Source: Clostridiales bacterium | GTDB taxonomy: Bacteria; Bacillota; Clostridia; Christensenellales; DTU072 | Direction: 5' to 3' | Length of the DNA: 40,451 nt | Assembly: GCA_012800525.1 (NCBI GenBank) | Contig: JAAZJD010000008.1 | Coordinates: 1 to 40,451, forward strand | Part shown: positions 3,461 to 33,720 of the stretch, piece by piece | Layout of the letters: each line of letters begins with the position of its first letter | Position numbering within the stretch: position 1 is the stretch's first letter | Notes under the pieces: generated by a model | What the model saw: the letters and a program-made list of their open reading frames with translations, nothing else | Databases searched by the model: none | What the model was told of the DNA's origin: nothing | Made by a program: the position numbers and the translations under genes

Positions 3461-3838
3461 CTATTGAAGATGTTTGTGAATCCATTGGAGAAGAGTAGAG
3501 GTATCTGCATTTCCTTTAGCGACACTTAAGATTATGTTAATGAGATCATCTTGTGTGTATTCCAGCTCGACATTATTTAAAGAAAGGAAAATTAACATTA
3601 CATGAGCTGCAATTCGTTTGTTGCCATCAAAAAAAGGATGATTTGCCACAAGTCCATAGCAAAGCCTTGCGGCTTTTTGCAAAATGGAAGGATATAATTC
3701 AGCCCCTTCAAATGTTACAAAGGGAGATTTGAGAGCAGACTCAAGTAGCCCTTCATCGCGAATCCCGCTCATACCACCAGTTTCTTTTATAAGTTGCTGA
3801 TGAAGTAGTATAACTTGCTCTTTACTTAAACCAATCAT
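3461..3838 (-). CDS. doc: Doc toxin (Fic-fold kinase, death-on-curing)
   Basis: 125-residue Doc-type Fic protein. The core motif HPFFDGNKR (residues 67-75) has the Lys that separates Doc kinases from AMP-transferring Fic proteins, which have GNGR. Doc of phage P1 phosphorylates EF-Tu and stops translation; the substrate here is inferred. The upstream antitoxin gene overlaps it by four bases (ATGA), the usual translational coupling of toxin-antitoxin pairs. The C-terminus ends normally, so the gene appears intact. No terminator is visible in the 97 bases after it. Confidence 0.92.
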   Translation of the reverse strand: MIGLSKEQVILLHQQLIKETGGMSGIRDEGLLESALKSPFVTFEGAELYPSILQKAARLCYGLVANHPFFDGNKRIAAHVMLIFLSLNNVELEYTQDDLINIILSVAKGNADTSTLLQWIHKHLQ

Positions 3839-4789: not shown

Positions 4790-7744
4790 ATGAAAAAGAA
4801 AAACATTTTTACTGTAGTAGCTTTAATATTATCACTTGTTTTTTTAGCATTTGTTTTAATTTCTTGTGGAGAGGAAAAAACACCTAGTAATGAAACTGAT
4901 AATGGTCTTTTGGGAACATATTTTTATGAAAGAGAAGATTTTTCTTTAGATAACTTAGCTTGGATTGAGATTGTTAATAATAATCAATGGAAAGATTCAA
5001 AAGGGAAAGAAGGGACTTACACAGTTTCTGGTAGTGCCGTTACTTTTTATTTAGGTGGTGAAGAATTTTTAAATGGTGTAATTGATAATGGTGTATTGGA
5101 AGTAAATTATATTACATATAGAAAAGAAGCCAGGACTGAAGAAAAAGAAAATCCTAACACTACTGATACAAGCGATAGGGCAACAATAACAGGGCTAAAA
5201 AATATAAATGTAGAAGCATTTAACATTGATGGATTTAATATATATTTTGAAGTGAGCCCGGAGACAAATAAATTAGATTTTTATAATAATTTTGAGTATA
5301 AAACAGGTGGCACTTATTGTGACTTTTATTCAGACTCAGATTATACTGCAAAAATTTCACAAATTGTAGCACTTGAAGATGGCGAGAATGTCTTTTATAT
5401 CAAAGTAACTACAAATGAAGGTGACCCAAGATATGGAAAGTCTTGTTACAACAAATATACATTAACTATATATAAAAAGATTTATGCAACAATTACATAT
5501 CTAAACGAAGATGGTAGTTTTTATGCGAAAGAAGAAAAAGTTTTAGAAGGTACTGTTTTAAAAAATGGTAAAGAGATTTCTCGTATGGGTTACACATTTA
5601 ATGGCTGGAAAGAGGAAAATGCTACAAATGTTTTTGATTTTACTGCTCCAATAAAAAAAGACACAACATTATACGCAAGTTGGACTGCAAATAAATACAC
5701 TGTTACTCTTGATGCAAAAGGCGGAAAAGTTTCTAAAAACACATGGACAGTGACCATGGATGAACCTTTTTCTTTTCCAGTTGCAACGGATAAATTCGAG
5801 CATAACTTTGGCGGATGGTGTAAATGGCCTGATGGCGATACGCCATATACATATGCAGATGGTAAAGGTAGGGTCCCCAAATGGACAACACCTAGCCATA
5901 TGACTTTATATGCTAAATGGATCCCTAATCAATATAAGGTAACTTTAAACAATACTAATCCCGATGCTGGCACTTTATCTGGTGGTGGCAATAAAGATTA
6001 TGGTAGTGAAGTGACCATCAAAGCTAAAAGAAATAAAGGTTATGTGTTAATTGGTTTATATGATGAAAATGAAACGAAGGTGTCGACTGATGCTAATTTA
6101 ACATATACATTTACTATGTCTAACAAGCCTAAAACCTTTAAAGCAATATGGGAAATAGGAGTATATACCATCACTTACGATCCACAAGATGGTTATATCG
6201 CTCTAAATAGTTTTTCAATTAAATATGGGGACACTTATTCGCTAGAAAAACCCATACCAACTGAAGCATTAAAAGGATATGAATTTATCTATTGGCGATA
6301 TGATGGATGGAGACGTATAGCACTTACTGGTAATTGGCAAGATGAGGGAGATTCTACTTTAGTAGCTGAATGGAGTCCTATTACATACAATATTACATAT
6401 GACTTAGCTGGCGGAAATGTTTCGTCTCAAAATCGAACAACTTATACAGTTGAAACTCCTAATTTTACCTTGAATAATCCAATAAAACCTGGATATACAT
6501 TTATAGGTTGGTCAGGTACGGATATAGAGGGCGAATCTACAACTGTGGAAATACAAAAAGGCAGCATAGGGGTTAGATCATATATCGCAAATTGGGTACC
6601 GACTACTTGTAGAGTAACCTTTGATGCTAATTCAGGAAACAGTACACATGGCGCACAAGATATAACTACAGGAGATAGCATATCAAGTGCAAAAGCATTC
6701 CCAGTAGCTACTCATAGTAATTTAAATATGAAGTTTATGGGTTGGTATAACTCTAAAACTGGTGGTAAAAAAATAACAGATAGTCAAGGCAATGGTTTAC
6801 ATATATGGAATGCAGATAATACAAATACTACTGAAGAACTTTGGTTTAGTGAAGGCGAAGAAATAACTCTTTATGCAAGATGGTTTGATTCAAGCACTAA
6901 GCCGTTATTTACAAGAATAGATGCCGCTGGGAATGAAGACCCTACAGGCGACTACATACTATTTGGTGAGTATCCACAAACAATTAAAGCAAATGATGTT
7001 GAAGTAACAACGGAAAAAGATGTCAATGATAGATATTATCTAGGAAAAGATAATTCGTATTATGCAAAAGTATCTGCAGTACCATATGATAAAAATTGTA
7101 GGTTTTCAAATAATGAATATATCAATAATGGTAGAGTTTATTTTTTCAAGGTAGAGCCTGTCAAATGGAGAATACTTACTTTAACTAATGGTGATAAAAA
7201 TGCACTATTACTATGTGAAAGTATAATTGCAAACAAGAGATATAATGATTGGTCTGAAGGCATGCAAAATGGAGTATATGCTAATAATTACAGAGAAAGT
7301 GAAATAAGCGATTGGCTAAATAATGAACTTTGTAATACAATGTTTTCCCTTGAGCAAAAAGATAAAATTTCAGAAGAGTCTGTAGATAATCGCGCTAGTA
7401 CCACTGGATATGACCCTAATCAATATGCCGACGATAACCCATATGATAGTAGACGTATATTCTTAGCTAGTTATTGTGAAGTTACAGAAGCTCATTATGG
7501 TCTTAGCGCTACAAGTTCAAGACGCAGAGTCGCAAGTGACTATAGTAGGGCAACAGGAGTGCAGATTGAATCAGATAGTAGTGCAGGTTATGGTCGTTGG
7601 TGGCTGCGTTCTCCTCACTATTTTTATAGCGATAGAGTGCGCTTTGTTGGTTTTGAAGGAACAGTTGATGGGGAAGCTGATGTTAAATATGCTGTTGCTA
7701 AAGATATAGGTGTAGTTCCAGCTTTACGACTTAAGCTAGAATAG
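4790..7744 (+). CDS. Surface lipoprotein with InlB-type repeats and a DUF6273-like domain
   Basis: 984 residues. The signal peptide ends in lipobox LISC (Cys26), so it should be lipid-anchored outside the membrane. A beta-sandwich segment (cadherin-like, about 125-230, with EDGENVFYIKV) follows. Then come about six beta-rich InlB B-type repeats (about 235-700), marked by GYTFNGW, TLYASW, GYTFIGW and TLYARW. The C-terminal 280 residues resemble DUF6273: DYILFGEYPQT, FFKVEPVKWRIL, LLLCESIIANKRYN, SDWLN and GRWWLRSP. Two paralogues follow at 13970 and 16855. Such proteins are presumed surface ligand-binding or adhesion factors; no ligand is known here. A GAGGA site precedes the ATG at a long spacing. 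Confidence 0.85.
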   Translation: MKKKNIFTVVALILSLVFLAFVLISCGEEKTPSNETDNGLLGTYFYEREDFSLDNLAWIEIVNNNQWKDSKGKEGTYTVSGSAVTFYLGGEEFLNGVIDNGVLEVNYITYRKEARTEEKENPNTTDTSDRATITGLKNINVEAFNIDGFNIYFEVSPETNKLDFYNNFEYKTGGTYCDFYSDSDYTAKISQIVALEDGENVFYIKVTTNEGDPRYGKSCYNKYTLTIYKKIYATITYLNEDGSFYAKEEKVLEGTVLKNGKEISRMGYTFNGWKEENATNVFDFTAPIKKDTTLYASWTANKYTVTLDAKGGKVSKNTWTVTMDEPFSFPVATDKFEHNFGGWCKWPDGDTPYTYADGKGRVPKWTTPSHMTLYAKWIPNQYKVTLNNTNPDAGTLSGGGNKDYGSEVTIKAKRNKGYVLIGLYDENETKVSTDANLTYTFTMSNKPKTFKAIWEIGVYTITYDPQDGYIALNSFSIKYGDTYSLEKPIPTEALKGYEFIYWRYDGWRRIALTGNWQDEGDSTLVAEWSPITYNITYDLAGGNVSSQNRTTYTVETPNFTLNNPIKPGYTFIGWSGTDIEGESTTVEIQKGSIGVRSYIANWVPTTCRVTFDANSGNSTHGAQDITTGDSISSAKAFPVATHSNLNMKFMGWYNSKTGGKKITDSQGNGLHIWNADNTNTTEELWFSEGEEITLYARWFDSSTKPLFTRIDAAGNEDPTGDYILFGEYPQTIKANDVEVTTEKDVNDRYYLGKDNSYYAKVSAVPYDKNCRFSNNEYINNGRVYFFKVEPVKWRILTLTNGDKNALLLCESIIANKRYNDWSEGMQNGVYANNYRESEISDWLNNELCNTMFSLEQKDKISEESVDNRASTTGYDPNQYADDNPYDSRRIFLASYCEVTEAHYGLSATSSRRRVASDYSRATGVQIESDSSAGYGRWWLRSPHYFYSDRVRFVGFEGTVDGEADVKYAVAKDIGVVPALRLKLE

Positions 7745-13969: not shown

Positions 13970-16645
13970 ATGAAAAAAAGAAGTATTTTAATCATTGTTT
14001 TATTATTATTGATAGTCTTATCTGCTGGTGCATTAGCAGCTTGTTCAGGTTGCACGAACTCTCAAAATCAAGAGCCAGACGATGACAAACCACCACAATT
14101 AAGTGGAGAAGCTAGCATAACATCAGTACAAGGTGGACAAATGAATGGTCTTGACTTGATGTTAGAAGTTACAGATGATGACGAGATAATTTTAGCTAAT
14201 ATCTTATCTGCTTCAGAAGGTGCAAACTGGAAAGTATATACAGATGAAAATAATAAAGAAGCAAGCGCTGTAAGTTTTAGTGCTAAATTGACAGACCTAG
14301 TAGATGGTGAAAATATTTTTTATGTCGAAGTAAAGTCTGAAGATGGTAAAAAGAGCCAAATATATACATTGAAAATATTCCAAAATTGTAATGTTACATT
14401 AACTTTAACTAACGATAATTCTGAGGCTGGAACTATCTCTGGTGCAGGGAAAAAAGCTAGTGGTAGTAAAGTAACAATAATAGCAGAAGCTAATGCTGGT
14501 TATGTTTTCCTTGGTTGGTATCAAGGAGAAAATAAAATAGCTGATAGTAATAAATCACCTTATACATACACTATGCCTGATGTTGATAGCACACTGACTG
14601 CAAAATGGGAATATGCAAAATATGATGTAAAAACAAATACCAATAATTCTGGTGCTGGCACTCTTTCTGGTGCAGGAAATTATGCTTATAAAAGTAAAGT
14701 AGTCCTAAAAGCAACAAATAATAAAGAAAGTGCATATATTTTCGATGGTTGGTTTGAAAATTTAGATGAACCAGCAATATCAACAGCTTTAGAGTATAGC
14801 TTCACTATGCCTTCTCGCGCTATAACTTTAATTGCAAAATGGTCAATTAAGGAATATAAGTTAACAATAGTAAAAAATATTGAAGCAGCAGGTACAGTAT
14901 CTTGTGAGAAAATAGAAGGCAGTGAGGGAATGATAAAATATGGCGAAGGCGTAACATTAGCAGTAACGCATGCTAATCCAAATGGTTATTGGTTTGATGG
15001 CTGGTTTGAAGGTGTCACAAATAAGGGAACTCAAACGGAATATAGCTTTACTATGCCAGATTCTGATGTAACTGTTGAAGCAAAGTGGACTGTTAGATCA
15101 TATAATGTAAATGTAAATCATAATATAGAAACAACCCTAATAACTACAACTGGCTCTAATCCTTATGACTATAACACCGAAGTAACCATAGAAACAAGTA
15201 GTAATGCTTATTATGATTTCTTGGGCTGGTTTGATGCTGATAATGTAAAAATCTATAACGATAAAAAAGTGACATTTAATATGCCTGCTTTTGATGTAAA
15301 TTTAACTGCAAAATGGCAAGTTCAACAAATTGAGATTTCTGTATCAGCTTTGCCTTTAGCTGGTGGTTTAATAGGAGGAGCAGTTGAAGGGGGAGGTCCA
15401 CGTGAAGCATATACTTTGATTACATTAAAGGCAACCCCTAATCCTGGCTATATTTTTAGTGGTTGGTATGATAAAGATACTTCCTCCAAAATCGAAGGAG
15501 CAGAAGCAGAATATCAACGCACGAATGATGGTTCTATAACAAAATTTGAGGCACGTTGGGAAGCTATTAAATGTATAGTATCGTTTAATGCAAATGGTGG
15601 TAATGCAATTACAGACACACAAGAGATGTGGACTGGTCAAGAGATTACAGATGCTTCCCCATATTTTAATCAATTCCCAGTAGCCACACATAGTGGTTCA
15701 GGTAAAGTTTTCATGGGTTGGTATACAACTATAGATCCAGCAACTGCTGTGCGTATTACTCGTGCAGATGGAAATGGAATTAAACGTTGGGTTTCACCTG
15801 GTACAACACAAAATGTAACACAAACTCTTTATGCAAAATGGTTTGATACTAATATTGAGGGGAAAGGATATATAAGGGTAAATCAAGATGGTACTCTTAA
15901 TCCAACTGGTGGCTATATTCAGTTTGGGGAGTATCCACAAACCATCAAACCAAAAAGTGTAACCATTCCATCTCCAACACCAGGAGAAAATGGATATTAT
16001 TTAGGAAGTGATGGCAAAAAGTATGCTAAAATTACCGCAGCTCCATTTAAAGGTTATTATAAATTCTCAAATGATGAAGAAGTGGGTACTACAGAATATT
16101 ATTTTGAAGTGAAGCCTCTTATTTGGAAAATTCTTGAAACAAAAGGTAACGATGCTCTAGTATTATGTGAAAGCATTATTACAAATATGGCATATGATGC
16201 TACAAACAGTAAGTATGGAGAAAGTGCTGTAAGGACTTGGTTAATTGAAACATTCTATCAAACAGCATTTCCAAATTTGCAAAAACAATTAATTCATAAA
16301 GTAACAGTAGATAACAGTGCTGCAAGTACAAGATATGAGGATAATCCAAATGCTTCTGCTGATACAGAAGATAGAGTTTTCTTATTAAGTTATCTTGAAT
16401 GCTCTACTTACGGAAATGTTTTAATAGGAAGTACATTAAAAAAGGTAACTGATTATGCTATAGCAACAGGCGCATGTATGGATAATAATATGAGTAGGGT
16501 AGGCTACTGGCGACTACGTTCACCTAATAGTACCTCAGGACAAGCAGAGTGCATAGACCATAATGGTACGGCTCAACCAAATGTAGCGATTACAGCTGCT
16601 GAATATGGTATTGCTCCTGCTATATGGGTATTCCTTGCGGAATAA
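13970..16645 (+). CDS. Surface lipoprotein with InlB-type repeats and a DUF6273-like domain (paralogue 2)
   Basis: 891 residues. Signal peptide with Cys25 in LAAC (a second Cys follows at 28), so it should be a lipoprotein. Residues about 45-135 form a beta-sandwich with VDGENIFYVEVKSEDGKK, clearly homologous to the same segment of the 16855 protein. Then follow about six divergent InlB-type repeats with the pattern AGTISGAG, GYVFLGWY, TYTMPD, LTAKWE. The C-terminal domain has GGYIQFGEYPQT, EVKPLIWKILE, LVLCESIITNMAYD, VRTWLIE and GYWRLRSP. AGGGGGT precedes the ATG. Presumed cell-surface binding protein; ligand unknown. Confidence 0.85.
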   Translation: MKKRSILIIVLLLLIVLSAGALAACSGCTNSQNQEPDDDKPPQLSGEASITSVQGGQMNGLDLMLEVTDDDEIILANILSASEGANWKVYTDENNKEASAVSFSAKLTDLVDGENIFYVEVKSEDGKKSQIYTLKIFQNCNVTLTLTNDNSEAGTISGAGKKASGSKVTIIAEANAGYVFLGWYQGENKIADSNKSPYTYTMPDVDSTLTAKWEYAKYDVKTNTNNSGAGTLSGAGNYAYKSKVVLKATNNKESAYIFDGWFENLDEPAISTALEYSFTMPSRAITLIAKWSIKEYKLTIVKNIEAAGTVSCEKIEGSEGMIKYGEGVTLAVTHANPNGYWFDGWFEGVTNKGTQTEYSFTMPDSDVTVEAKWTVRSYNVNVNHNIETTLITTTGSNPYDYNTEVTIETSSNAYYDFLGWFDADNVKIYNDKKVTFNMPAFDVNLTAKWQVQQIEISVSALPLAGGLIGGAVEGGGPREAYTLITLKATPNPGYIFSGWYDKDTSSKIEGAEAEYQRTNDGSITKFEARWEAIKCIVSFNANGGNAITDTQEMWTGQEITDASPYFNQFPVATHSGSGKVFMGWYTTIDPATAVRITRADGNGIKRWVSPGTTQNVTQTLYAKWFDTNIEGKGYIRVNQDGTLNPTGGYIQFGEYPQTIKPKSVTIPSPTPGENGYYLGSDGKKYAKITAAPFKGYYKFSNDEEVGTTEYYFEVKPLIWKILETKGNDALVLCESIITNMAYDATNSKYGESAVRTWLIETFYQTAFPNLQKQLIHKVTVDNSAASTRYEDNPNASADTEDRVFLLSYLECSTYGNVLIGSTLKKVTDYAIATGACMDNNMSRVGYWRLRSPNSTSGQAECIDHNGTAQPNVAITAAEYGIAPAIWVFLAE

Positions 16646-16715: not shown

Positions 16716-16854
16716 GTTGATATAAAGGGCTAATAAAGTGAAGGAAAAATATTTGCTTTTGATATATAAAATTACAAGATAAGAAGTGTTTGCAGCTTTT
16801 TATTTTGAAGGACATAGATATAAATATAAAAACATATTTGTACTAGGAGGTAAA

Positions 16855-19596
16855 ATGAAAAAGAGAAGCATTTTAATAATCGTATTAGTATTAGCAATAG
16901 TACTAGCTGTTACGCTTTCTTCTTGTAAGGACAAAAAGGAATTAAATGGCGAAGCGGTCATACAAGGCATAGAAGGTGGATCGTTAGAGGGGCTTGATGC
17001 ATCTTTAGATGTTTCACCCGACACTACAAATGTAGATTTTTCTTCAATTATATCTGCATCTGAAGGTGCAACTTTTAAAGTGCATAAGGATGAAGCAGGA
17101 GAAACTGAAGTTTCTACAGATGCTGCAGTGGAGTTAGAAGATGGTGAAAATATTTTTTATGTCACAATAACTTCTGAAAATGGCGAAGCTAGTGAAACAT
17201 ACAAGTTAAATGTATATAAAAAGTTTAATGTAACTGTAACATACAAAAATGGCGATGCCATAGTTGAAACGGAGGAAGTTGTAACTCGCACAGTTTTGGG
17301 TGCAGGTCCAGAAGCTCCTATCCGCAAAGGATATACATTTGGTGGCTGGGGTTCAGAGGGTCATGTAGTGACAGAGGCTGTGACATTTGATGCAATTTGG
17401 ACAGTTAATCAATATACACTAACTTTAAGCAAAAACATTAATGCAGCTGGAACAGCCAATATATTAGGCGAAAGCAAGAATGATTATGGCAAAAGTGTCA
17501 CTGTAAAGGCAACAACCAACGAGGGTTACAATTTTGATGGTTGGTATGACAAGCAAGTAAAAGTATCAGAGGAGCTAGAATATACATTTGACATGCCCGC
17601 ATATAATAGGGAGCTAAAAGCAACTTGGAAAGCCAATCATTACACATTATCTTTAAGTATGGATAATACCTATCCTAATGCTGGTGATGTAGTTGGAGGC
17701 GGCGAAAAAGAATATGGCAAACAAGTGCAAGCAACAGCAAGAACTAATCTAGGTTATACTTTCTTGGGCTGGTTTGATGAGTTGGGGAACAAAGTCTCTG
17801 ATGAGCCAAATTATGAGTTTACTATGCCAGCTAAAGCTAGGTCACTTCAAGCAAGGTGGAACATCAATAAATATAAGGTAACTATAACAAAAGTTAATGG
17901 AGAAGGAGGCAATGCCTCAGGTGCTGGCGACTATAACTATGGAACTAGCATAACCCTAACTGCAACAAAAAATACTGGTTATAATTTTGAAGGTTGGTTT
18001 GATGAAAATAATAAAAAAGTCTCTGACGGCTCAGATTTGACCTATTCATTTACGATAGCTACTTCTAATAGAACATTTAAAGCAAAATGGAGTATTCAAC
18101 AATATACTATTACATTTAATAGTAATGGAGGAAGTGATGTGCAACCCGTCACTCAAGACTATGGTACTGAAGTAAATGCACCTAGTAATCCAATAAAAAT
18201 AGGACATACATTTGATTATTGGTGCAGTGATGAGGGGCTAACAAATCAATATACATTTGGTGGTACAATGCCAGCACAAAACTTTACCCTATGGGCTAAA
18301 TGGAAAGTCCTAAAATATCAATTAAATGTAAGTTCAGATCCTGCGGGTGCTTGTACACCGACTGGTACTGGAAGCTATGATTATGGCTCTTCTGTAAGTG
18401 CAGAAGCGGTAAGCCCTAATCCTGGCTACTGGTTTGTTGGCTGGTTTGACGAGGTTGGTGTTGTTGATGGGGGTTTAAAGTATACATTTAACATGCCTGA
18501 CAAAACAGTTAATCTTACTGCGAAATGGTCGCCAAACAACTATAAACTAACATTAAACAATGACAACCCTGATGCTGGAACAATTACGGGTGCAGGGACA
18601 TACCCTTATAAAAGAAGTGTAACAATAGAAGCAACAAACAAGCCAGGTTATACATTTGAAGGTTGGTATGAGGGGAGTGAAAGAAAAACTTGGCCAGCAA
18701 AAAAGACATTTGCAATGCCTAATTATGCAATGACACTTACAGCAAAATGGAAACTATATCAACGGATAAACTATGATGGAACTTCTAATCCAACAACTGG
18801 CAACTATATTTTATTTGGTGAATGGCCACAAACACTTAAAGCTGATAATGTAACGATACCAGCTGGCGCATCACCAGAAACTAGTGGTCCTTATAAAGGC
18901 TATTATGCAGGTTATGATGCAAGTGACAATATCGTTGGATATTATGCAGAAGTGACTGCAAGCCCATATAACAGTAGTTATAGGTTTACAGATGAAAATG
19001 GACCAGCTATAGTGAGTGGCACAAAGTATTACTTCAAGGTTGAACCACTAAAGTGGAGAATATTAGAAAGCACAGCTGGCAAAGCGATGATAATATGTAC
19101 AAGCATTATTGAAAGTATGGGCTATGATAACATTAACAACACATATAATGTAGACAATACACATAGTGAATTGAGACGTTGGCTAAATAATGCGTTTTTA
19201 ACAAAAGCATTTAGCACATTAAGACAACAATTAATAGAAAATACTGAGGTAAATAATGCTGCCTCTACTACGCATAATGCTTCTAATCCATATGAGTCTA
19301 ATAATTCAATAGATAAAGTGTTTGCATTGAGCTATTTGGAATTATCAAACAGCAATTATTTTACTGGTAATACAGCAAGGCAAATAGTGACAAGTGACTA
19401 CACTAGGGCAAAGGGCATTAGGATGCAAATAACATCAAGCGGTTATGGAATTGCTCAATGGTGGTCTCGCTCGCCTAGGTCAGAAGCAAACAATATTGTT
19501 ACTGTGGTAGATTTCGATGGTTCATATACTGATAAGAGTGCAACGATTACGACTGGTTCAGTAGGCGTAGTTCCTGTTGTATGGATAAAATTATAG
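16855..19596 (+). CDS. Surface lipoprotein with InlB-type repeats and a DUF6273-like domain (paralogue 3)
   Basis: 913 residues from the ATG at 16855, chosen because AGGAGG lies at 16845-16850 and the signal peptide begins there (MKKRSILIIV, nearly the same as in paralogue 2). The lipobox is LSSC. Domains: beta-sandwich (EDGENIFYVTI), a classic InlB repeat (GYTFGGWG), about seven divergent repeats (GYNFDGWYD, GYTFLGWFD, FTMPA, LTAKW), then a DUF6273-like domain with GNYILFGEWPQT, FKVEPLKWRILE, MIICTSIIESMGYD, LRRWLNNA and QWWSRSP. The repeat region is longer than in paralogue 2. It ends at a clear terminator. Confidence 0.85.
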   Translation: MKKRSILIIVLVLAIVLAVTLSSCKDKKELNGEAVIQGIEGGSLEGLDASLDVSPDTTNVDFSSIISASEGATFKVHKDEAGETEVSTDAAVELEDGENIFYVTITSENGEASETYKLNVYKKFNVTVTYKNGDAIVETEEVVTRTVLGAGPEAPIRKGYTFGGWGSEGHVVTEAVTFDAIWTVNQYTLTLSKNINAAGTANILGESKNDYGKSVTVKATTNEGYNFDGWYDKQVKVSEELEYTFDMPAYNRELKATWKANHYTLSLSMDNTYPNAGDVVGGGEKEYGKQVQATARTNLGYTFLGWFDELGNKVSDEPNYEFTMPAKARSLQARWNINKYKVTITKVNGEGGNASGAGDYNYGTSITLTATKNTGYNFEGWFDENNKKVSDGSDLTYSFTIATSNRTFKAKWSIQQYTITFNSNGGSDVQPVTQDYGTEVNAPSNPIKIGHTFDYWCSDEGLTNQYTFGGTMPAQNFTLWAKWKVLKYQLNVSSDPAGACTPTGTGSYDYGSSVSAEAVSPNPGYWFVGWFDEVGVVDGGLKYTFNMPDKTVNLTAKWSPNNYKLTLNNDNPDAGTITGAGTYPYKRSVTIEATNKPGYTFEGWYEGSERKTWPAKKTFAMPNYAMTLTAKWKLYQRINYDGTSNPTTGNYILFGEWPQTLKADNVTIPAGASPETSGPYKGYYAGYDASDNIVGYYAEVTASPYNSSYRFTDENGPAIVSGTKYYFKVEPLKWRILESTAGKAMIICTSIIESMGYDNINNTYNVDNTHSELRRWLNNAFLTKAFSTLRQQLIENTEVNNAASTTHNASNPYESNNSIDKVFALSYLELSNSNYFTGNTARQIVTSDYTRAKGIRMQITSSGYGIAQWWSRSPRSEANNIVTVVDFDGSYTDKSATITTGSVGVVPVVWIKL

Positions 19597-26097: not shown

Positions 26098-26103
26098 CAA
26101 CAT

Positions 26104-26250
26104 AAGAACCCAAGTCGGATACGAGAGGAATTTATCCTGTAACGGCCGCGCCGCGTGGGGAGCTGTTAGCTTTCTGCAAAGAGTGAGGGTTCTTTAAAGG
26201 ATACGGTGGACTTGACTCCAGGCCATGCAATGGCAACCGTGTCTTTTTTT
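26104..26250 (+). ncRNA. Structured small RNA of unrecognised class
   Basis: About 147 bases, far richer in GC than its surroundings. A first domain is closed by AAGAACCC (26104-26111) with GGGTTCTT (26187-26194). Inside are GGATA/TATCC (26117-26121, 26133-26137), AACGGC/GCTGTT (26141-26146, 26162-26167) around CGCGCCGCG, and CTTT/AAAG. A second domain is closed by GATACGGT (26200-26207) with ACCGTGTC (26236-26243), holds GGA/TCC and GCCAT/ATGGC arms, and is followed by seven Ts, a terminator. It has no open frame. I compared it by eye with T-box, SRP, tmRNA, 6S and common riboswitches and found no match. Confidence 0.7.
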
Positions 26251-26340: not shown

Positions 26341-26399
26341 TCTTTAGCATATTAACATTTTAAGGTATAATAATATTAGTTTATTGAGAATGCTAAAGA
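26341..26399 (+). promoter_or_regulatory. Helicase-operon promoter inside an inverted repeat
   Basis: TCTTTAGCAT (26341-26350) and ATGCTAAAGA (26390-26399) are perfect inverted repeats. Between them, TTTAGC (26343-26348) and TATAAT (26366-26371), spaced 17 bases, form a promoter. The right arm overlaps the ribosome site AAAGAGGTGAG. It may be an operator pair, or, in read-through RNA, a stem that hides the ribosome site. Confidence 0.6.
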
Positions 26400-26412
26400 G
26401 GTGAGAAAAGTT

Positions 26413-29400
26413 TTGTTTGGCAATGAAATTACATTTTATGACTTAGAAACACTAGTGGATGCTAATGTAAAGAAAGAAAAAAGCGTTCGCGATATTGGTG
26501 CATTTAGAGGAGGCAAGGAGTTTCATGATGATTCTCTTGAAAAGTTTGGGGACTTTATAAAAGGAAGCAAATTTCTTTGCGGTCATAATATTTTTCAACA
26601 TGATAACTATTATATAAAAAATATAACAGATAGGCTTAATATAAGTAGCTTTATTGATACTTTGTTGCTATCTCCATTACTAGATCCATATAAGCCATAT
26701 CACTATTTAATAAAGGATGATAATATTGTTGGCTCTAGAAACTTTAATGACCCTTTATCAGATTCTAAAGGTGCAGCAAAACTGCTTGAAGATTTCATTG
26801 ATAAATATAAAAATCTTAATAAAAACATGCAAAAAATTTTATATTTTCTTTTGCATGAACATATATATTTTAAAAGTTTCTTTGAATTTATAAATGTTCG
26901 ATTTTCTAAATTTGGTATTAATTTATCTAATCTAATAAAGCGTGAAGTGGGAGATAAAATATGTATTAATGCTCCAATCGATATGTTAATTGATAATAGG
27001 CCGATTGAACTTGCATATACACTTATGCTTTTTTCTCAATATGCAGAACAAAAGAAAAACATTGACTGGTTAAAAGTTAAAACTGAGCTAGATGATGGGT
27101 TTGTTTTTTTAGAAAAACCCAAAGATGGTGATGTACCATATGTTTTAAAAACTCCAGCATGGGTTTTAAGAAACTTTCCTAAAATAGAAGAAGTTGTTCA
27201 TATATTAAGAGGTGTTAGTTGCAAGGCATGTAAATATTGTAAAAACGAATTAGACGAGGTTAAATCTTTAAACAAATTTTTTGGATATGAAAATTTTAGA
27301 CAGTTTGATGGTAAAAACCTACAACATGAGGCGGTAAAGGCTGCTACAGAAGGAGAGTCTATTCTTGTCATTTTTCCTACTGCTGGCGGAAAATCTCTGA
27401 CATTTCAACTGCCAGCATTAATAGCTGGACATGCTGAAAATAGCTTAACAGTTGTTATTTCTCCTCTTCAATCTTTGATGAAAGACCAAATAGATGTTTT
27501 AGAAAAAGAACATAATATTTTTAGTGCAGTAACAATAAATGGATTGCAAGATGTTGTGGAAAGAAAAAATGCAATTGAAAGAATCGAAAAGGGAAGTGCA
27601 AACATTTTATATATTTCACCAGAAAAATTAAGAAGTCAAAGCACAGAGAATCTTTTGCTTAGAAGACATATTGCAAGATTTGTAATTGATGAAGCCCACT
27701 GTTTATCATCATGGGGACATGACTTTAGAGTAGATTACCAGCATATTGGAAAGTTTATAAAAACTCTGCAGGCTAAAAAAGGTGGCAAAAGAATCCCTGT
27801 TTCATGTTTTACTGCTACAGCAAAAGTGGAAGTAAGTGATGAGATTAAAAAATATTTTAAGAAAACTTTAAATCTTGAATTAAGAGAAATAAGTGCAGAT
27901 ACTCGAAGAAAAAATTTAAGTTATTTCCAAATTTCAGTAAAAGACAATGCAGACAAGTTTGATATCTTGTGTAATCTTTTAAAAGAGAAAAGATGTCCAA
28001 CGATCGTTTATGTAGCAAGGGTCCAAAGAGCAAACGATTTAGCCCAAAAGCTTTGTGGTAGAGATTTTAAGGCACGGGCATATAATGCAAAAATGGATTC
28101 CAAAGAAAAGGCAAAAAATCAAGATGATTTTAAAGAAGGCAACATAGATATAATTGTTGCAACTACCGCATTTGGTATGGGAGTTGATAAGAGTGATGTA
28201 GGAATGGTAGTTCACTATAATATATCAGATTCTTTAGAAAATTATGCTCAAGAATCAGGTAGAGCAGGAAGGGACCCTAAAATAACAGCTGATTGCTATA
28301 TCATATACAATGAAGATGATTTAAATGATCATTTTTCAATGTTAAATCATACTAAACTATCTTTAAAAGAAATTAAGGATATATGGAAAGCTGTTAAAAA
28401 TATAACAAAAGATAAACGAAGAAAATTTTCAATGTCTGCTATTGAAATAGCAAAAAGGGCAGGATGGGACTTGGAAGTAAATAAATCAGGCATTGAAACT
28501 AAAGTTACTACTGCAATTAATGCTTTAGAGCAAGGTGGTTTTTTGGAAAGAGGATATAATGCTCCTAGAATATTTGCCGACAGTATTTTGGTAAATAGTG
28601 TAATGGAAGCAAGAAAGAAACTTGAAAACTCTAAACTTTTTAAAGATGACGAAAGAAAAGATAAAGCAATGCAAATACTTGGTTCATTGCTTGGCTCTAA
28701 AAATATAAATCGCAAAAAAACTGATACAGCTGAATCTAGAGTAGACTATATTGCAGAAAATCGCGGTTTTGAAACACAAGAAGTTATGGATATTGTTACT
28801 GACTTAAGGACAGAAGAAATCCTTGGTGATTCTCAAGATTTAGTAATTGATTTTAGTAGTGAAGGATTAATTGGACAAAAGAGAGAAAAACTTAAGAGGC
28901 TTTATGAAATAGAGAAATGTTTTTTAAGTTATCTAAAAAAAGGTACAAATACATATGATTTAAGAGAAATCAATGAAGAAATCCAAAAAATCAATGAGAA
29001 AGCTTCAATCGTAGAATTACAAAAAGTAGTAGGATTTTTAAGTATTGCTGGTTATATCAAAACAGAAAGAGCAGGGAAAAGATATTCATTAAAAATTACC
29101 AGTGTAGAAGATGATAGTGAATATTTAATAAAACATCTAGATCGTAGATTAGATATATCAAATACTTTATTGAGTTACTTAAATGAATTAGACAGAACAA
29201 AGCCAACTGACAAAAGGTTTATTGAGGTGTCTACTAAAATGCTAGTGGACCATTATAACCATAATCTATTAGGTGATATCATCAATTCAAAAGAGGTAGA
29301 GGAAGCTTTGCTATATTTATCAAGAGTAGATATTTTAAGTATAGAAGGTGGCTTTTTAGTTTTATATAATGCAATGCAGATTGAAAGGATAGAATATGGT

Positions 29401-31380
29401 AGAGATTATTTAAAATCAGATTATGCAAAATTAGAGGAGTTCTATGAAAATAGAAAAAGACAAATTCATTTTGTTGGCGAGTATGCTGGATTAATGAAAG
29501 AAGACATGGTTAAAGCTAAAGAGTTCGAAAGAGATTATTTTACTTTAGAATCTAAAGAATTTGAGAAAAAATATTACAAAGGAAGACAAAAGGAACTAAA
29601 ATCGAGTATCACTCCTAAAAAATATGAAGAACTCTTTTCAGACTTGTCGGAAGAACAATTAGAAATAATAGAAGATAAAGATTCTCAATATATAGTTGTT
29701 GCTGCAGGACCTGGTAGTGGTAAAACTAGAATTTTAACAAGAAAACTAGCCTCACTTAGTCTTTTAGAAGATGTCAAAAGTGAACATTTGCTAATGCTTA
29801 CTTTTTCTAGAGCTGCGGTTAATGATTTTAAAGAAAAATTAACGGAATTATTAAAAGAGCAAGCAAAATATATACAAATAAAAACATTCCACTCTTATTG
29901 TTTTGATTTATTAGGAAGACCTGGAAATATTAATGATGACAAAATAATTGCAGAAGCAACAGAAAAAATACGTGCGGGCGAAGTTGATACATATACCTTA
30001 AATAAAAAGACACTGGTTATTGATGAAGCTCAAGATATGAATGAGGAACACTTCGGCTTAATAGAGGCATTAATTGAACAAAATGAAGATATGAGAGTTA
30101 TTGCGGTAGGGGATGATGATCAATGCATTTTCCAATTTAATGATGCCAATCCTCAATTGTTTGGCTCATTGTTATTAAAAGAAAAATCGCAAAAGTATGA
30201 ATTGGTGGATAATTATAGGAGCTATGCAAATCTAGTGAGTTTTTCAAATCAATTTATTGCAAGAGAGAAAAACAGATTAAAGAAAACAGCAATTAAGCCA
30301 GTAAATAAAGTAAATGGCAATATACAAGTTATAGAGGTAGAGTCTGATAATATTGAAGGAGCTGTGGCTGATGCAGTTTTATCGACCAATCTTTCTGGCA
30401 CTACTTGCATAGCAACTAGGACAAATCAAGAAGTTAATATGATAACATCATTGCTTGTTGATAGAGGAAGAGATGCATCAAGAGTTCAGTCAATGATGCA
30501 AACAAATATTTCCTGCTACAAATTAGTAGAAATTAGAGCTTTTCTAGATTACATTGTCAAACTTATGAAGGAAGAAACTCAAAATGAAATTTCTGAAGAT
30601 TTTTGGAATAATGCAAAACAACAAATAAGCAGAGTATATAAATCTAGTAAAAACTTGGATATACTTGAAAACTTTTTTAAAGGTTTTGAAAAGAATTTTC
30701 CAAATGAAAAGTATAAAGATGATCTGCTAGAATTTGCTAGAGAAGTTAGTATTGAAGATCTTAGCGATATTGATGAAAATAAAATTTTCGTATCAACAAT
30801 ACATAAAATAAAAGGCAGAGAATTTGATAATATGTTTATTATGTTGGGCGAAAGTTTTCCTGAAAGGTTATCAGCTGAAGATAACAAACTTATATATGTT
30901 GCACTTACAAGAGCCAAGAAAAATATGTGTATACTTTGCAAGAGAAACCCCTTTATATATATCAATGTAGACAATCTAAAAAGGTACAAAAACAATAAAA
31001 ATTATGAGTTGCCTCGAGAAATTACCTTAAGATTTACATACTCTGATGTACATTTAGGCTATTTTGATTACGAACCAACCCAACGCAAAATAAACAAATT
31101 AAAAAGTGGGGATAAATTATATTGTGATGTAGATGGTGAAAAACTCTTTTATAGAGAAAACTCAAATAAAAATGATTGCATTTATCTTTCCAGTGCTAAG
31201 CAAAAGGAAGTCAAAGAATTAATGGAAAAAGGTTATGTTATGCATCAAGCCTCAATTAAAGATATTGTTTACTGGATTAAAGACAAAGATTTAGCAACAG
31301 CAAAAGAAATAAAAGTAATTTTGCCAGAATTGACTCTAAAGTTAAAAGATAAAGTCGAATCATCTACTCAATTAACTTGA
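26413..31380 (+). CDS. Exonuclease-RecQ-UvrD helicase fusion protein
   Basis: 1655 residues from TTG at 26413, preferred to GTG at 26401 because GAGGTGA lies at the right distance. Residues 1-150: DnaQ-like 3'-5' exonuclease region (YDLET with Asp10/Glu12; GHNIFQHD with Asn59, Asp64). About 270-276: a CxxCxxC metal-binding motif. About 290-640: RecQ-like helicase, Walker A FPTAGGKS (Lys327), DEAH box at 426-429, AFGMGVDKSD and QESGRAGRDP. About 650-1070: winged-helix and linker region. About 1080-1520: UvrD-like helicase, AAGPGSGKTR (Lys1104), IDEAQD (1203-1208), DNYRSY, STIHKIKGREFD and VALTRAKK. A helicase with two motors should process DNA; the exonuclease activity is inferred from motifs. 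Followed by MazG-like and HNH genes. Confidence 0.9.
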   Translation: MFGNEITFYDLETLVDANVKKEKSVRDIGAFRGGKEFHDDSLEKFGDFIKGSKFLCGHNIFQHDNYYIKNITDRLNISSFIDTLLLSPLLDPYKPYHYLIKDDNIVGSRNFNDPLSDSKGAAKLLEDFIDKYKNLNKNMQKILYFLLHEHIYFKSFFEFINVRFSKFGINLSNLIKREVGDKICINAPIDMLIDNRPIELAYTLMLFSQYAEQKKNIDWLKVKTELDDGFVFLEKPKDGDVPYVLKTPAWVLRNFPKIEEVVHILRGVSCKACKYCKNELDEVKSLNKFFGYENFRQFDGKNLQHEAVKAATEGESILVIFPTAGGKSLTFQLPALIAGHAENSLTVVISPLQSLMKDQIDVLEKEHNIFSAVTINGLQDVVERKNAIERIEKGSANILYISPEKLRSQSTENLLLRRHIARFVIDEAHCLSSWGHDFRVDYQHIGKFIKTLQAKKGGKRIPVSCFTATAKVEVSDEIKKYFKKTLNLELREISADTRRKNLSYFQISVKDNADKFDILCNLLKEKRCPTIVYVARVQRANDLAQKLCGRDFKARAYNAKMDSKEKAKNQDDFKEGNIDIIVATTAFGMGVDKSDVGMVVHYNISDSLENYAQESGRAGRDPKITADCYIIYNEDDLNDHFSMLNHTKLSLKEIKDIWKAVKNITKDKRRKFSMSAIEIAKRAGWDLEVNKSGIETKVTTAINALEQGGFLERGYNAPRIFADSILVNSVMEARKKLENSKLFKDDERKDKAMQILGSLLGSKNINRKKTDTAESRVDYIAENRGFETQEVMDIVTDLRTEEILGDSQDLVIDFSSEGLIGQKREKLKRLYEIEKCFLSYLKKGTNTYDLREINEEIQKINEKASIVELQKVVGFLSIAGYIKTERAGKRYSLKITSVEDDSEYLIKHLDRRLDISNTLLSYLNELDRTKPTDKRFIEVSTKMLVDHYNHNLLGDIINSKEVEEALLYLSRVDILSIEGGFLVLYNAMQIERIEYGRDYLKSDYAKLEEFYENRKRQIHFVGEYAGLMKEDMVKAKEFERDYFTLESKEFEKKYYKGRQKELKSSITPKKYEELFSDLSEEQLEIIEDKDSQYIVVAAGPGSGKTRILTRKLASLSLLEDVKSEHLLMLTFSRAAVNDFKEKLTELLKEQAKYIQIKTFHSYCFDLLGRPGNINDDKIIAEATEKIRAGEVDTYTLNKKTLVIDEAQDMNEEHFGLIEALIEQNEDMRVIAVGDDDQCIFQFNDANPQLFGSLLLKEKSQKYELVDNYRSYANLVSFSNQFIAREKNRLKKTAIKPVNKVNGNIQVIEVESDNIEGAVADAVLSTNLSGTTCIATRTNQEVNMITSLLVDRGRDASRVQSMMQTNISCYKLVEIRAFLDYIVKLMKEETQNEISEDFWNNAKQQISRVYKSSKNLDILENFFKGFEKNFPNEKYKDDLLEFAREVSIEDLSDIDENKIFVSTIHKIKGREFDNMFIMLGESFPERLSAEDNKLIYVALTRAKKNMCILCKRNPFIYINVDNLKRYKNNKNYELPREITLRFTYSDVHLGYFDYEPTQRKINKLKSGDKLYCDVDGEKLFYRENSNKNDCIYLSSAKQKEVKELMEKGYVMHQASIKDIVYWIKDKDLATAKEIKVILPELTLKLKDKVESSTQLT

Positions 31381-31440
31381 TGTTTTATAGAACCCACTTT
31401 ATTGATATAATGTAAAAAATAAACAAATTGAAGTAGCAAT

Positions 31441-31770
31441 ATGAAAACAATAAAATATAATAAATTAATCCGTGATAAAATACCACAAATAATAGAAGCA
31501 TCTGGCAAGAAATGTAAAACTCGCATTTTAGATGAAGTTGAATATAAAGAACATCTTAAACTAAAACTTCAAGAGGAACTAAATGAGTATTTAGAAAGCG
31601 ATAATGTTGAAGAACTTGCTGACTTATATGAAGTGTTAAAATCAATTCTCGATTTGGAAAATATTTCACTTGAGGAGTTTAATAAAATAGTGGATTCTAA
31701 AAGCGATAAACGTGGTGGCTTTAAAAAAAGACTCCTGTTAATAGAAGTTTCAGAAGAAGATAAGGAATAA
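31441..31770 (+). CDS. MazG/HisE-like nucleotide pyrophosphohydrolase
   Basis: 109 residues, all-alpha NTP pyrophosphatase type. The N-terminal signature YNKLIRDKIPQII is characteristic of the phosphoribosyl-ATP pyrophosphohydrolase-like family. Metal ligands lie in LQEELNEYLE and VEELADLYEVLK (the EExxE...ExxD pattern). The C-terminal SKSDKRGGFKKRLLLIEV is also typical. Such enzymes hydrolyse nucleotide triphosphates to monophosphate and pyrophosphate; substrate unknown. It starts 60 bases after the helicase stop; a TATAAT in the gap may give extra transcription. The ribosome site is weak. Confidence 0.85.
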   Translation: MKTIKYNKLIRDKIPQIIEASGKKCKTRILDEVEYKEHLKLKLQEELNEYLESDNVEELADLYEVLKSILDLENISLEEFNKIVDSKSDKRGGFKKRLLLIEVSEEDKE

Positions 31771-31797
31771 AATATTGTAAAATTTGTAGGTATAAAA

Positions 31798-32835
31798 ATG
31801 AGTATACCAGGTTATTTGTTAAAAGAAGGTCCAGTAAAACCATATGCTTCAGAAGAGGAAATGTGGGAAAATCTTAGTGCTTTTTTTATTGGTAGAGCTA
31901 AGTTTGATACTACATATAAATTTGCACTTTTAAAAAGCATATTGGATAATTTGTTTAATGTTGAAAAAGATTTAACTTTAAGTTTCGACTCCATATTTGC
32001 AAAGTTTAGTGAACTATATTGGAGTTTAGTAGCAAAGTATGAGCTAAATCAAAAAGCAGCAAATGTTCGAAATGCAAGAAGTAAAGTAGAGCAAATAATA
32101 GATAAATATCTAATAGAATATGACATAGACAGGGATACCCCATTTGATTCTTTGTCCTCTAGTATCCAGCTTAAATTAGTAAAAGAAATTGGGAAAGAAT
32201 GTAGGCACAATGTGTTTGGTGCTTTTTACGGAGATACTGATGGATTTATATATGGTTTTAGCAAAAAAGAAGAAAAAATATATTTAAGCAAAGCTTCTTA
32301 CGCATTTCTTTGTAAGCATAAAACTGTTATAGAAAAAAGCAATTATTTTGAGTGGGTTAAATTTTTAGAAAAAGTTAATCCCATGGAGAGCTCGTATCAA
32401 TTAGCTAAAAAATTAGATGATTCAACAAAGCGAGAAAATCTTGGATTTTATCGAGACTATTTACTAAAAGAGTTTCATATTAAAAATTGTTTTTATTGCT
32501 CTAAAACCTTAGCACGTAAAATTGAAGTAGATCATTTTATTCCTTGGTCATTTGTAAAAGATGATAAATCATGGAATTTAGTTTTAGCATGTAAAGATTG
32601 CAATAGTTCAAAAAGCGACACTTTGGCTCATAATAAGTTTATACCTATCATACAAAAACGAAATTGTGAGCTTTTAGATATGTCAAAAAAGGAAATAATT
32701 ACTAGTTCAAGCAAAGTTAAAAGAGAGAAAGATTTTATCATCAAAGATTTTCAAAATTATGATAATGAAAAAATAAATAGAGTATACAATACAGCAGTTT
32801 CAAATGGTTTTAAGGCTGGTTGGTTACCTAGATAA
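31798..32835 (+). CDS. HNH endonuclease
   Basis: 345 residues. The C-terminal third carries an HNH nuclease: zinc pair CFYC (Cys231, Cys234), catalytic VDHFIPWSF (Asp245-His246), WNLVLACKDCN and the second zinc pair CKDC. The N-terminal 220 residues have no familiar domain but are mixed helical (ISWSLVAKYE-like charged segments) and may recognise DNA or partner proteins. It starts 27 bases after the pyrophosphohydrolase, presumably in one operon with the helicase. Its last 12 bases overlap the convergent fic gene. Confidence 0.85.
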   Translation: MSIPGYLLKEGPVKPYASEEEMWENLSAFFIGRAKFDTTYKFALLKSILDNLFNVEKDLTLSFDSIFAKFSELYWSLVAKYELNQKAANVRNARSKVEQIIDKYLIEYDIDRDTPFDSLSSSIQLKLVKEIGKECRHNVFGAFYGDTDGFIYGFSKKEEKIYLSKASYAFLCKHKTVIEKSNYFEWVKFLEKVNPMESSYQLAKKLDDSTKRENLGFYRDYLLKEFHIKNCFYCSKTLARKIEVDHFIPWSFVKDDKSWNLVLACKDCNSSKSDTLAHNKFIPIIQKRNCELLDMSKKEIITSSSKVKREKDFIIKDFQNYDNEKINRVYNTAVSNGFKAGWLPR

Positions 32836-33720
32836 AACACTATCTTTCTCATACGGAATTTTGAATTGATCAAGTAGGGCGATTACTCTTGCTTGACCGC
32901 TTTTATAGGAATCGCGGAGGTATGGGCTAACACCTGATTCATCAAAGCCATTATAATAAAATAGTTTAATATCATTTTCAATGATACAAGGGATAAAGTT
33001 GTTTTTTAAAGATTCTTTAAACATTATTAATCTACCAACACGACCGTTACCATCTTGGAAGGGATGGATGCGCTCAAATCTACTGTGAAATTCTAAGATG
33101 TCATAAAATGGGGTTTCTGGCTCTTCATTATATTTTTTAAGGAGAGCTTTCATTTTTTGAGGAACTGCTTCTGGTAAAGCTAATTTGGTGTGATAAATGG
33201 GTTTATGAGGTAGTTTTTTATATTCTCCAGCTGTAGTGTCTGTGGTTCCGTTTTTGAGGGTGAAATGTAGCTTTTTTATAAACGTTTCATTTAGCTTTTT
33301 TGACACATTTTCTAACATTAAATCAAAGCACTTGAAGTGATTTATAGTTTCAATAATATCATCAGTGTTATAAGATTTTTTTGTAGGATTAAAAGTATTT
33401 GTTTTGTAAATTTCTTCAACCTCTTTGCGTGTTAATTTGTTATCTGCCATTGCGTTTGATTCAAAAGCAAAGTCAATTTGAATGGCTTCATAGATGCCAC
33501 CGCTTGTTTTGTTTTTCATTTCATCAAGTAGGGTGTTAAGTAAGACCATTGGCTTTTTTGCAGCATTTATTCTTTCTGGTTTTTTAGCATTGTCTGGAAT
33601 AAGCCACATCTTACCTGTAAGAAAAGCGCCTTCAATGCGCTCATTTGCACAATAATTTCTAACACTTCTTGGAGATATCCCCCATTTTTTTGCAATTTGT
33701 TCTACTGATATATACCACAT
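32824..33720 (-). CDS. Fic-domain AMP transferase with N-terminal helix-turn-helix
   Basis: 298 residues. Residues 1-42 form a helix-turn-helix with a wing (VEQIAKKWGISPRSVRNYCA; FLTGKMWLIP). The Fic motif HPFQDGNGRVGR (219-230) is complete, so AMP transfer from ATP to a hydroxyl side chain is expected. The N-terminal inhibitory motif, usually SxxxE(G/N)N, reads SNAMADN (88-94): the inhibitory Glu is Ala92. AAAGGAG precedes the ATG. The gene converges on and overlaps the HNH gene. The target is unknown; autoregulation through the helix-turn-helix is suggested by the palindrome upstream. Confidence 0.88.
   Translation of the reverse strand: MWYISVEQIAKKWGISPRSVRNYCANERIEGAFLTGKMWLIPDNAKKPERINAAKKPMVLLNTLLDEMKNKTSGGIYEAIQIDFAFESNAMADNKLTRKEVEEIYKTNTFNPTKKSYNTDDIIETINHFKCFDLMLENVSKKLNETFIKKLHFTLKNGTTDTTAGEYKKLPHKPIYHTKLALPEAVPQKMKALLKKYNEEPETPFYDILEFHSRFERIHPFQDGNGRVGRLIMFKESLKNNFIPCIIENDIKLFYYNGFDESGVSPYLRDSYKSGQARVIALLDQFKIPYEKDSVLSR

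Follow-up and report, generated by a model that had tools for sequence, protein, structure and literature searches.

Restriction enzymes that couple a DNA-reading domain to an HNH nuclease are already known. In ScoMcrA and SprMcrA, an N-terminal sulfur-binding domain (SBD) is followed by a C-terminal HNH domain; R/K117 of the sulfur pocket contacts the phosphorothioate, and P165, at the base of the pocket, is essential (PMC6224610). SspE and DndI, also HNH nucleases, are DUF262-DUF1524 NTPase-nickases. In addition, COG4997 comprises house-cleaning nucleoside triphosphate (NTP) pyrophosphohydrolases, and MazG-type domains have been predicted, but not validated, in defense (PMC13092281). Here, we analyzed a 40,451-nt contig stretch of a Clostridiales bacterium (GenBank assembly GCA_012800525.1, contig JAAZJD010000008.1), referred to below as the window, whose genome (G000) is 95% complete. 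Three co-oriented genes in the window encode an exonuclease-RecQ-UvrD helicase, a MazG-like COG4997 pyrophosphohydrolase, and an HNH endonuclease (Table 1). Our leading reading, held with moderate confidence, is that they form two independent units, namely, a solo helicase and a MazG-like/HNH cassette that is a candidate for modification- or structure-dependent restriction with a nucleotide-acting partner.

A sequence-only reading of this DNA had grouped the three genes into one operon with a possible defense function. To place this grouping in context, the neighborhoods of approximately 100 homologous helicase loci from several phyla were inspected, with flanks of up to 10 kb. A single-sequence helicase search of genome contigs had given nothing, and an N-terminal profile search then gave 80 loci. 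None of the approximately 100 loci holds an HNH homolog, and a MazG-like gene is present only as a HIT-MazG fusion, three genes away, in two closely related loci (L050 and L052). In a sample of 398 Bacillota genomes, the helicase N terminus was found in 15 genomes besides that of the window (E < 1e-30) and the HNH family in 10 (E ≤ 1e-15). The co-occurrence search that the sequence-only reading had proposed returned no genome with both, except the window's own. Even within the host's own family, the helicase (G021, L063) and the HNH gene (G030, L180) are found apart, and MazG-like and HNH genes are paired without the helicase in several lineages. The helicase and the pair are therefore separate, and a three-gene system is rejected on these neighborhood and co-occurrence counts.

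The pair itself recurs. Across about 27 loci of the HNH family, a COG4997 gene adjoins the HNH gene in the window, on two Paenibacillus plasmids (L146 and L183), in two genomes of one Bacillota genus (G734 and G593; L171 and L177), and in G801 (L175). Other enzymes occupy the adjoining position elsewhere: MazG (PF12643) in G096 and G801 (loci L175 and L181), HIT on two betaproteobacterial plasmids (L151 and L188), and a Methyltransf_11 protein in at least six loci (L148, L164, L173, L180, L181, and L189). The HNH and partner genes often overlap by a few bases. COG4997 genes are sparse, as 299 genomes gave 44 matches (0.15 per genome), and the single copy in the window genome is the HNH-adjacent gene. 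At least four independent COG4997-HNH adjacencies in approximately 24 loci would have a probability of about 2e-12 under random placement, an estimate based on 2500 genes per genome that takes no account of the clustering of accessory genes. The MazG-like and HNH genes are a real, recurring two-gene cassette.

The MazG-like protein shares 54% of its residues with an annotated NTP pyrophosphohydrolase, and its EExxE...ExxD metal-binding motif (E45, E46, E49, E58, and D61) is invariant in eight sequences, in agreement with the enzyme class first proposed for it. It has no Pfam match above the cutoff, MazG and PRA-PH included; its relatives are annotated as NTP pyrophosphohydrolases. From the house-cleaning members of COG4997 it differs in being paired with a nuclease gene. 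Two compact operons in other genomes are possible larger versions of the cassette: one encodes a GIY-YIG-SLFN-g3 helicase, MazG, HNH, and Methyltransf_11 (L181:3906-7499), and the other encodes SLFN-g3, MazG, COG4997, HNH, a 169-amino-acid (aa) protein, and a SauUSI-like type IV enzyme (L175:2130-9420).

The helicase is numbered here over 1,659 residues, from the first possible start codon. A predicted exonuclease region (approximately residues 1 to 160) is followed by a Cys motif (274 to 280), a RecQ core (approximately 283 to 660), a linker (660 to 1080), and a UvrD region (1080 to 1515). The two helicase motors of superfamily 2 (SF2) and superfamily 1 (SF1), previously recognized by their motifs in one 1,655-residue chain, are supported by Pfam matches to DEAD (E 3e-31), Helicase_C (4e-23), UvrD-helicase (6e-29), and UvrD_C (2e-21). 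The first motor carries Walker A PTAGGKS at 326 and DEAH at 430, and the second carries GPGSGKT at 1103 and DEAQ at 1208. The core scores 276 bits against the RecQ family model TIGR00614, above the cutoff of 219.8, which assigns it to this family. RecQ and UvrD family helicases both translocate 3' to 5'. Immediately N-terminal to the RecQ core lies the expected CxxCxxC motif (C274, C277, and C280), which reads CxxxCxxC in relatives and is missing in one distant homolog (Aliarcobacter).

The exonuclease region, earlier described as DnaQ-like, has no Pfam match. Its residues D14, E16, D68, and D121 are nevertheless kept across homologs, and the His position of the DEDDh type is occupied by an invariant Asn, N116. 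An AlphaFold2 model of the region, built on an alignment of 25 homologs, has a predicted local distance difference test score (pLDDT) of 82. The model of the N-terminal 275 residues matches DEDD exonuclease folds, with the N terminus of Staphylococcus aureus DinG as the top match (Z 13.4 over 219 residues). As modeled, a predicted DEDD exonuclease domain precedes a RecQ motor that scores above the family cutoff, an order that resembles WRN. However, the protein differs from WRN and other RecQ helicases in its added UvrD motor, in the Asn at the DEDDh His position, and in having no Pfam match, C-terminal to its core, to the zinc-binding and RQC domains of RecQ. It also differs from DinG, as its motors are RecQ and UvrD and not an XPD/DinG motor. 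The two motors probably unwind DNA while the DEDD domain trims single strands, so that one polypeptide would process DNA ends or forks.

Full-length relatives of the helicase, 34 to 48% identical, are found in Bacteroidota, Bacillota, Spirochaetota, Lentisphaerota, Balneolota, a deltaproteobacterium, and on plasmids. No neighbor is conserved across the approximately 100 loci: the largest unrelated neighbor family, generic ATPases, is present in 9, and many neighbors are housekeeping genes. The sequence-only reading had also considered a helicase standing alone in core genome positions; the gene does stand alone, but its positions are variable, plasmids included, rather than fixed. Split or partially deleted copies are frequent, to which assembly errors may contribute. 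The gene tree mostly tracks host phyla, with 6 label changes versus 15.2 in shuffles. In a weak test limited to the top 25 families listed, PADLOC families beside the helicase did not differ clearly from those further off in the same loci (3 versus 2 members per top family of 148). Since the tree largely follows the hosts and defense genes are not clearly enriched nearby, the default reading is solo DNA end processing or repair. The helicase is most likely a solo, accessory, and widespread DNA-processing enzyme, for which repair or recombination is likelier than defense.

Several observations were made beside helicase homologs. An SBD-HNH protein that matches the solved SBDHga1 is encoded directly upstream in one locus (L071:2554-3516), and in two Bacteroidota, SLFN-g3 (DUF2075) helicase genes immediately precede the gene of the exonuclease-RecQ-UvrD protein (L068:7900-9888 and L083:277-2397). 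The HIT-MazG fusions, in which HIT is joined to a COG4997 MazG-like domain, lie three genes upstream (L050:4270-4977 and L052:6353-7105). In two Clostridia, a small conserved family with no Pfam match is encoded on the same strand directly upstream (L066:232-804 and L086:9361-9990).

The best-surviving alternative, which we consider somewhat unlikely, is that the helicase is a single-gene defense, a one-protein RecBCD-like nuclease-helicase that would degrade invading or stalled DNA. Its patchy occurrence, variable and often damaged loci, and proximity in some cases to RloAB-like, AbiEii, SLFN-g3, or SBD-HNH genes agree with this idea, as do domains that resemble parts of DpdF and GajB. However, the host-like gene tree, the many housekeeping neighbors, and the lack of a visible excess of PADLOC families beside it argue against it. 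Against the DpdF equivalog of Dpd (NF041063), the helicase scores 228 bits, under the cutoff of 550, and the match is limited to the RecQ core. Unlike in Gabija, no GajA partner is present; besides the MazG-like and HNH genes, the window helicase has as neighbors a 168-aa gene with no Pfam match and a Fic gene.

Turning to the cassette, the HNH nuclease recognized earlier matches Pfam HNH_4 (E 9e-12). Residues D245, H246, N260, N269, and K272, which we take to correspond to SpCas9 D839, H840, N854, N863, and K866, are present and conserved, so the HNH catalytic residues are intact. A model of the protein (pLDDT 84; predicted template modeling score, 0.83) places the core at residues 213 to 338, with a Z score of 8.3 to a Cas9, and the core is of the intact Cas9/IscB-like type. 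PtuB models of Septu (PtuAB) match mainly this core, but there is no adjacent PtuA-type ATPase gene. The search for HNH homologs in phages gave a single match, which is weak and partial.

For the N terminus (residues 18 to 211), the best solved matches are the SBD of SprMcrA (Z 7.1 and 6.9) and ScoMcrA (Z 6.7), the top three VIA-align matches there. The first of these aligns 129 residues with a root mean square deviation of 3.3 Å, and the fold search listed few other folds, none scoring above the SBDs. In a profile comparison with SBD-HNH proteins, TYKfALL aligns with the SBD motif AP(H/Y)KPiLLL (E 0.0019 over 56 columns), which places K41, conserved in at least 90% of sequences, on the HKP lysine at the R/K117 position. 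On the basis of these models, the N terminus looks SBD-like and the protein resembles an SBD-HNH enzyme, with K41 at the R117 position of ScoMcrA and SprMcrA (PMC6224610). It differs from these enzymes in that no P165/HKP/PFxxL sulfur pocket is recognizable, in its Cas9-like HNH_4 domain, compared to HNH_2 in the SBD-HNH protein examined from L071, and in the genetic pairing of its family with small nucleotide or S-adenosylmethionine (SAM) enzymes.

The genes that surround the HNH family point to restriction. The closest annotated homolog (Treponema, L012; about 44 to 45% identity) adjoins SspA/B/C-like genes, and in G734 (L171:914-7350) the HNH-COG4997 pair is divergent, head-to-head, from dndB and dndC, both above the NCBIfam cutoff. 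Two more genes occupy the dndD and dndE positions at L171 and no DndFGH is seen in that stretch; the HNH protein could be the restriction arm there. Elsewhere, the family neighbors BREX, CRISPR I-F, McrBC with type I restriction-modification, and a SauUSI-like type IV enzyme with an SLFN-g3 helicase. As a separate observation, an SBD-HNH protein adjoins a DndB gene in L192:61-1050. A restriction role is backed by these neighbors, while phosphorothioation is only a lead. The anti-phage role first suggested for the whole locus is hence plausible for the pair, given its recurrence, architecture, and neighbors, but unproven for the helicase, beside which PADLOC families are not visibly enriched.

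In the proposed mechanism, the HNH protein would scan DNA through its predicted SBD-like domain, and the Cas9-type HNH would cleave DNA bearing, or lacking, a mark, a type IV-like restriction that depends on modification or structure. The exchangeable partner (COG4997, MazG, HIT, or Methyltransf_11) may hydrolyze or alter modified or foreign nucleotides, either starving the phage or preventing the incorporation of modified nucleotides into host DNA, which the nuclease would then spare. We infer both the substrate of the HNH protein and the role of the partner. More specifically, and only tentatively, the pair may belong to a class of restriction cassettes, linked to modification or phosphorothioation, that has so far not been described. 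In such a cassette, an SBD-like reader fused to a Cas9-type HNH would typically be encoded with an exchangeable small nucleotide or SAM enzyme; by cleaning modified nucleotides, this enzyme would let the nuclease tell foreign DNA, modified or unmarked, from self. Within an incomplete literature coverage, no description was found of a branch of Cas9-type HNH enzymes whose nucleotide-enzyme partners are exchangeable, of an exonuclease-RecQ-UvrD fusion, or of a MazG-HNH system.

A number of results weigh against the leading reading. Approximately 10 HNH loci have no partner enzyme alongside. For the predicted SBD-like fold, a Z score of approximately 7 is under the level trusted for helical folds, and Foldseek gave no match for the HNH N terminus at E ≤ 0.001. 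In the family alignment, no conserved proline equivalent to P165 is evident where it would be expected, beyond the YW motif; the alignment is uncertain at that position, and the protein is not assigned to the SBD-HNH enzymes. DndC (TIGR03183) and SspB (PDLC02768) have no match in the window genome, and in a set of 12 HNH-bearing genomes DndC is missing from 11. As for the helicase, we infer its repair role from distribution and domain logic alone.

Some of these points bear directly on a second alternative, in which the HNH protein is a phosphorothioation-gated effector like SspE or DndI that nicks DNA without host sulfur marks. This is an unlikely reading. Close homologs do lie beside Ssp genes (L012) and head-to-head with dndB and dndC with no DndFGH in view (L171), and the N terminus is predicted to be SBD-like. 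However, the window HNH has neither DUF262 nor DUF1524, DndC or SspB genes accompany only the homologs at L171 and L012, 2 of the approximately 27 HNH loci, and the window genome has no match to either.

Less probable still, the pair could be an abortive module in which the MazG-like enzyme depletes NTP or deoxynucleoside triphosphate pools while the HNH nuclease degrades host and phage DNA. A nucleotide pyrophosphohydrolase encoded next to a nuclease fits such a module, as does the status of MazG-type domains as predicted, unvalidated defense domains (PMC13092281), but HIT and Methyltransf_11 partners are not obvious nucleotide depleters. Finally, one anti-phage operon, in which the helicase-exonuclease would find or unwind invader DNA, the HNH protein cut it, and the MazG-like enzyme deplete NTPs, is suggested by the shared strand, the gaps of 60 bp (helicase/MazG-like) and 27 bp (MazG-like/HNH), and the HIT-MazG genes near the helicase in L050 and L052, but it is very improbable and already largely refuted by the absence of HNH genes and of any conserved neighbor at helicase loci, the lack of co-occurrence beyond the window, and the pairs found without the helicase.

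Table 1. Genes and promoter-like sites of the helicase and MazG-like/HNH units in the window
Feature	Coordinates	Strand	Remarks
Predicted DEDD exonuclease-RecQ (SF2)-UvrD (SF1) fusion	26413..31380 (TTG start); ORF opens at GTG 26401	+	1655 aa from TTG
MazG-like COG4997 nucleoside triphosphate pyrophosphohydrolase	31441..31770	+	109 aa; partner of HNH gene
HNH endonuclease	31798..32835	+	345 aa; predicted SBD-like 18-211 and Cas9-type HNH 213-338
Promoter-like site 5' of helicase, TTAGCA-16-TATAAT	26344..26371	+	consensus match alone
Promoter-like site, extended -10, TTTATA-16-TGATATAAT (TGnTATAAT)	31384..31411	+	consensus match alone; between helicase stop and MazG-like start

The helicase open reading frame (ORF) gives 1,659 aa from GTG 26401 and 1,655 aa from TTG 26413. 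TTG 26413 is the likelier start because GTG 26401 sits within the Shine-Dalgarno-like AAAGAGGTGAG (26395-26405). The extended -10 site suggests a separate transcription unit for the MazG-like and HNH genes, although such a site is not evidence by itself, and the count of promoter-like sites of this kind is not above chance.

Upstream of the helicase, positions 26100-26250 (+) contain a structured, transcribed-looking element with a fold z-score of -2.7. A closing stem, AAGAACCC...GGGTTCTT, surrounds several hairpins and is followed by a GATACGGT...ACCGTGTC hairpin and a T-run. The structured DNA has no match in Rfam, and a copy of its core, approximately 80% identical and with its own T-run, is present in the relative G023 (L196, near lrp/ald genes). 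The element is a candidate for an unknown small RNA.

Downstream, a Fic-domain gene with an N-terminal helix-turn-helix (32824-33720, -) is convergent with the HNH gene, overlaps it by 12 bp, and strongly matches the PADLOC candidate PDC-S04 (E 4e-77). Another, short Fic gene is located at 3461-3838. The window also encodes three large paralogs of the surface-protein type (4790-7744, 13970-16645, and 16786-19596, +), which carry InlB/Listeria-Bacteroides repeats and, at the C terminus, DUF6273.

Taken together, the apparent three-gene operon reflects chance proximity, and showing this averts a wrong system definition. The lone exonuclease-RecQ-UvrD protein adds a second motor to an exonuclease-RecQ layout like that of WRN and is an unusual bacterial counterpart of it; no characterized example was found within an incomplete literature coverage. 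If the MazG-like/HNH pair is a restriction cassette, enzymes of the nucleotide pool (MazG, HIT, and SAM methyltransferase) would be tied directly to a DNA cutter with a modification-reader fold, and MazG-type domains, as yet unvalidated in defense (PMC13092281), would gain a testable function.

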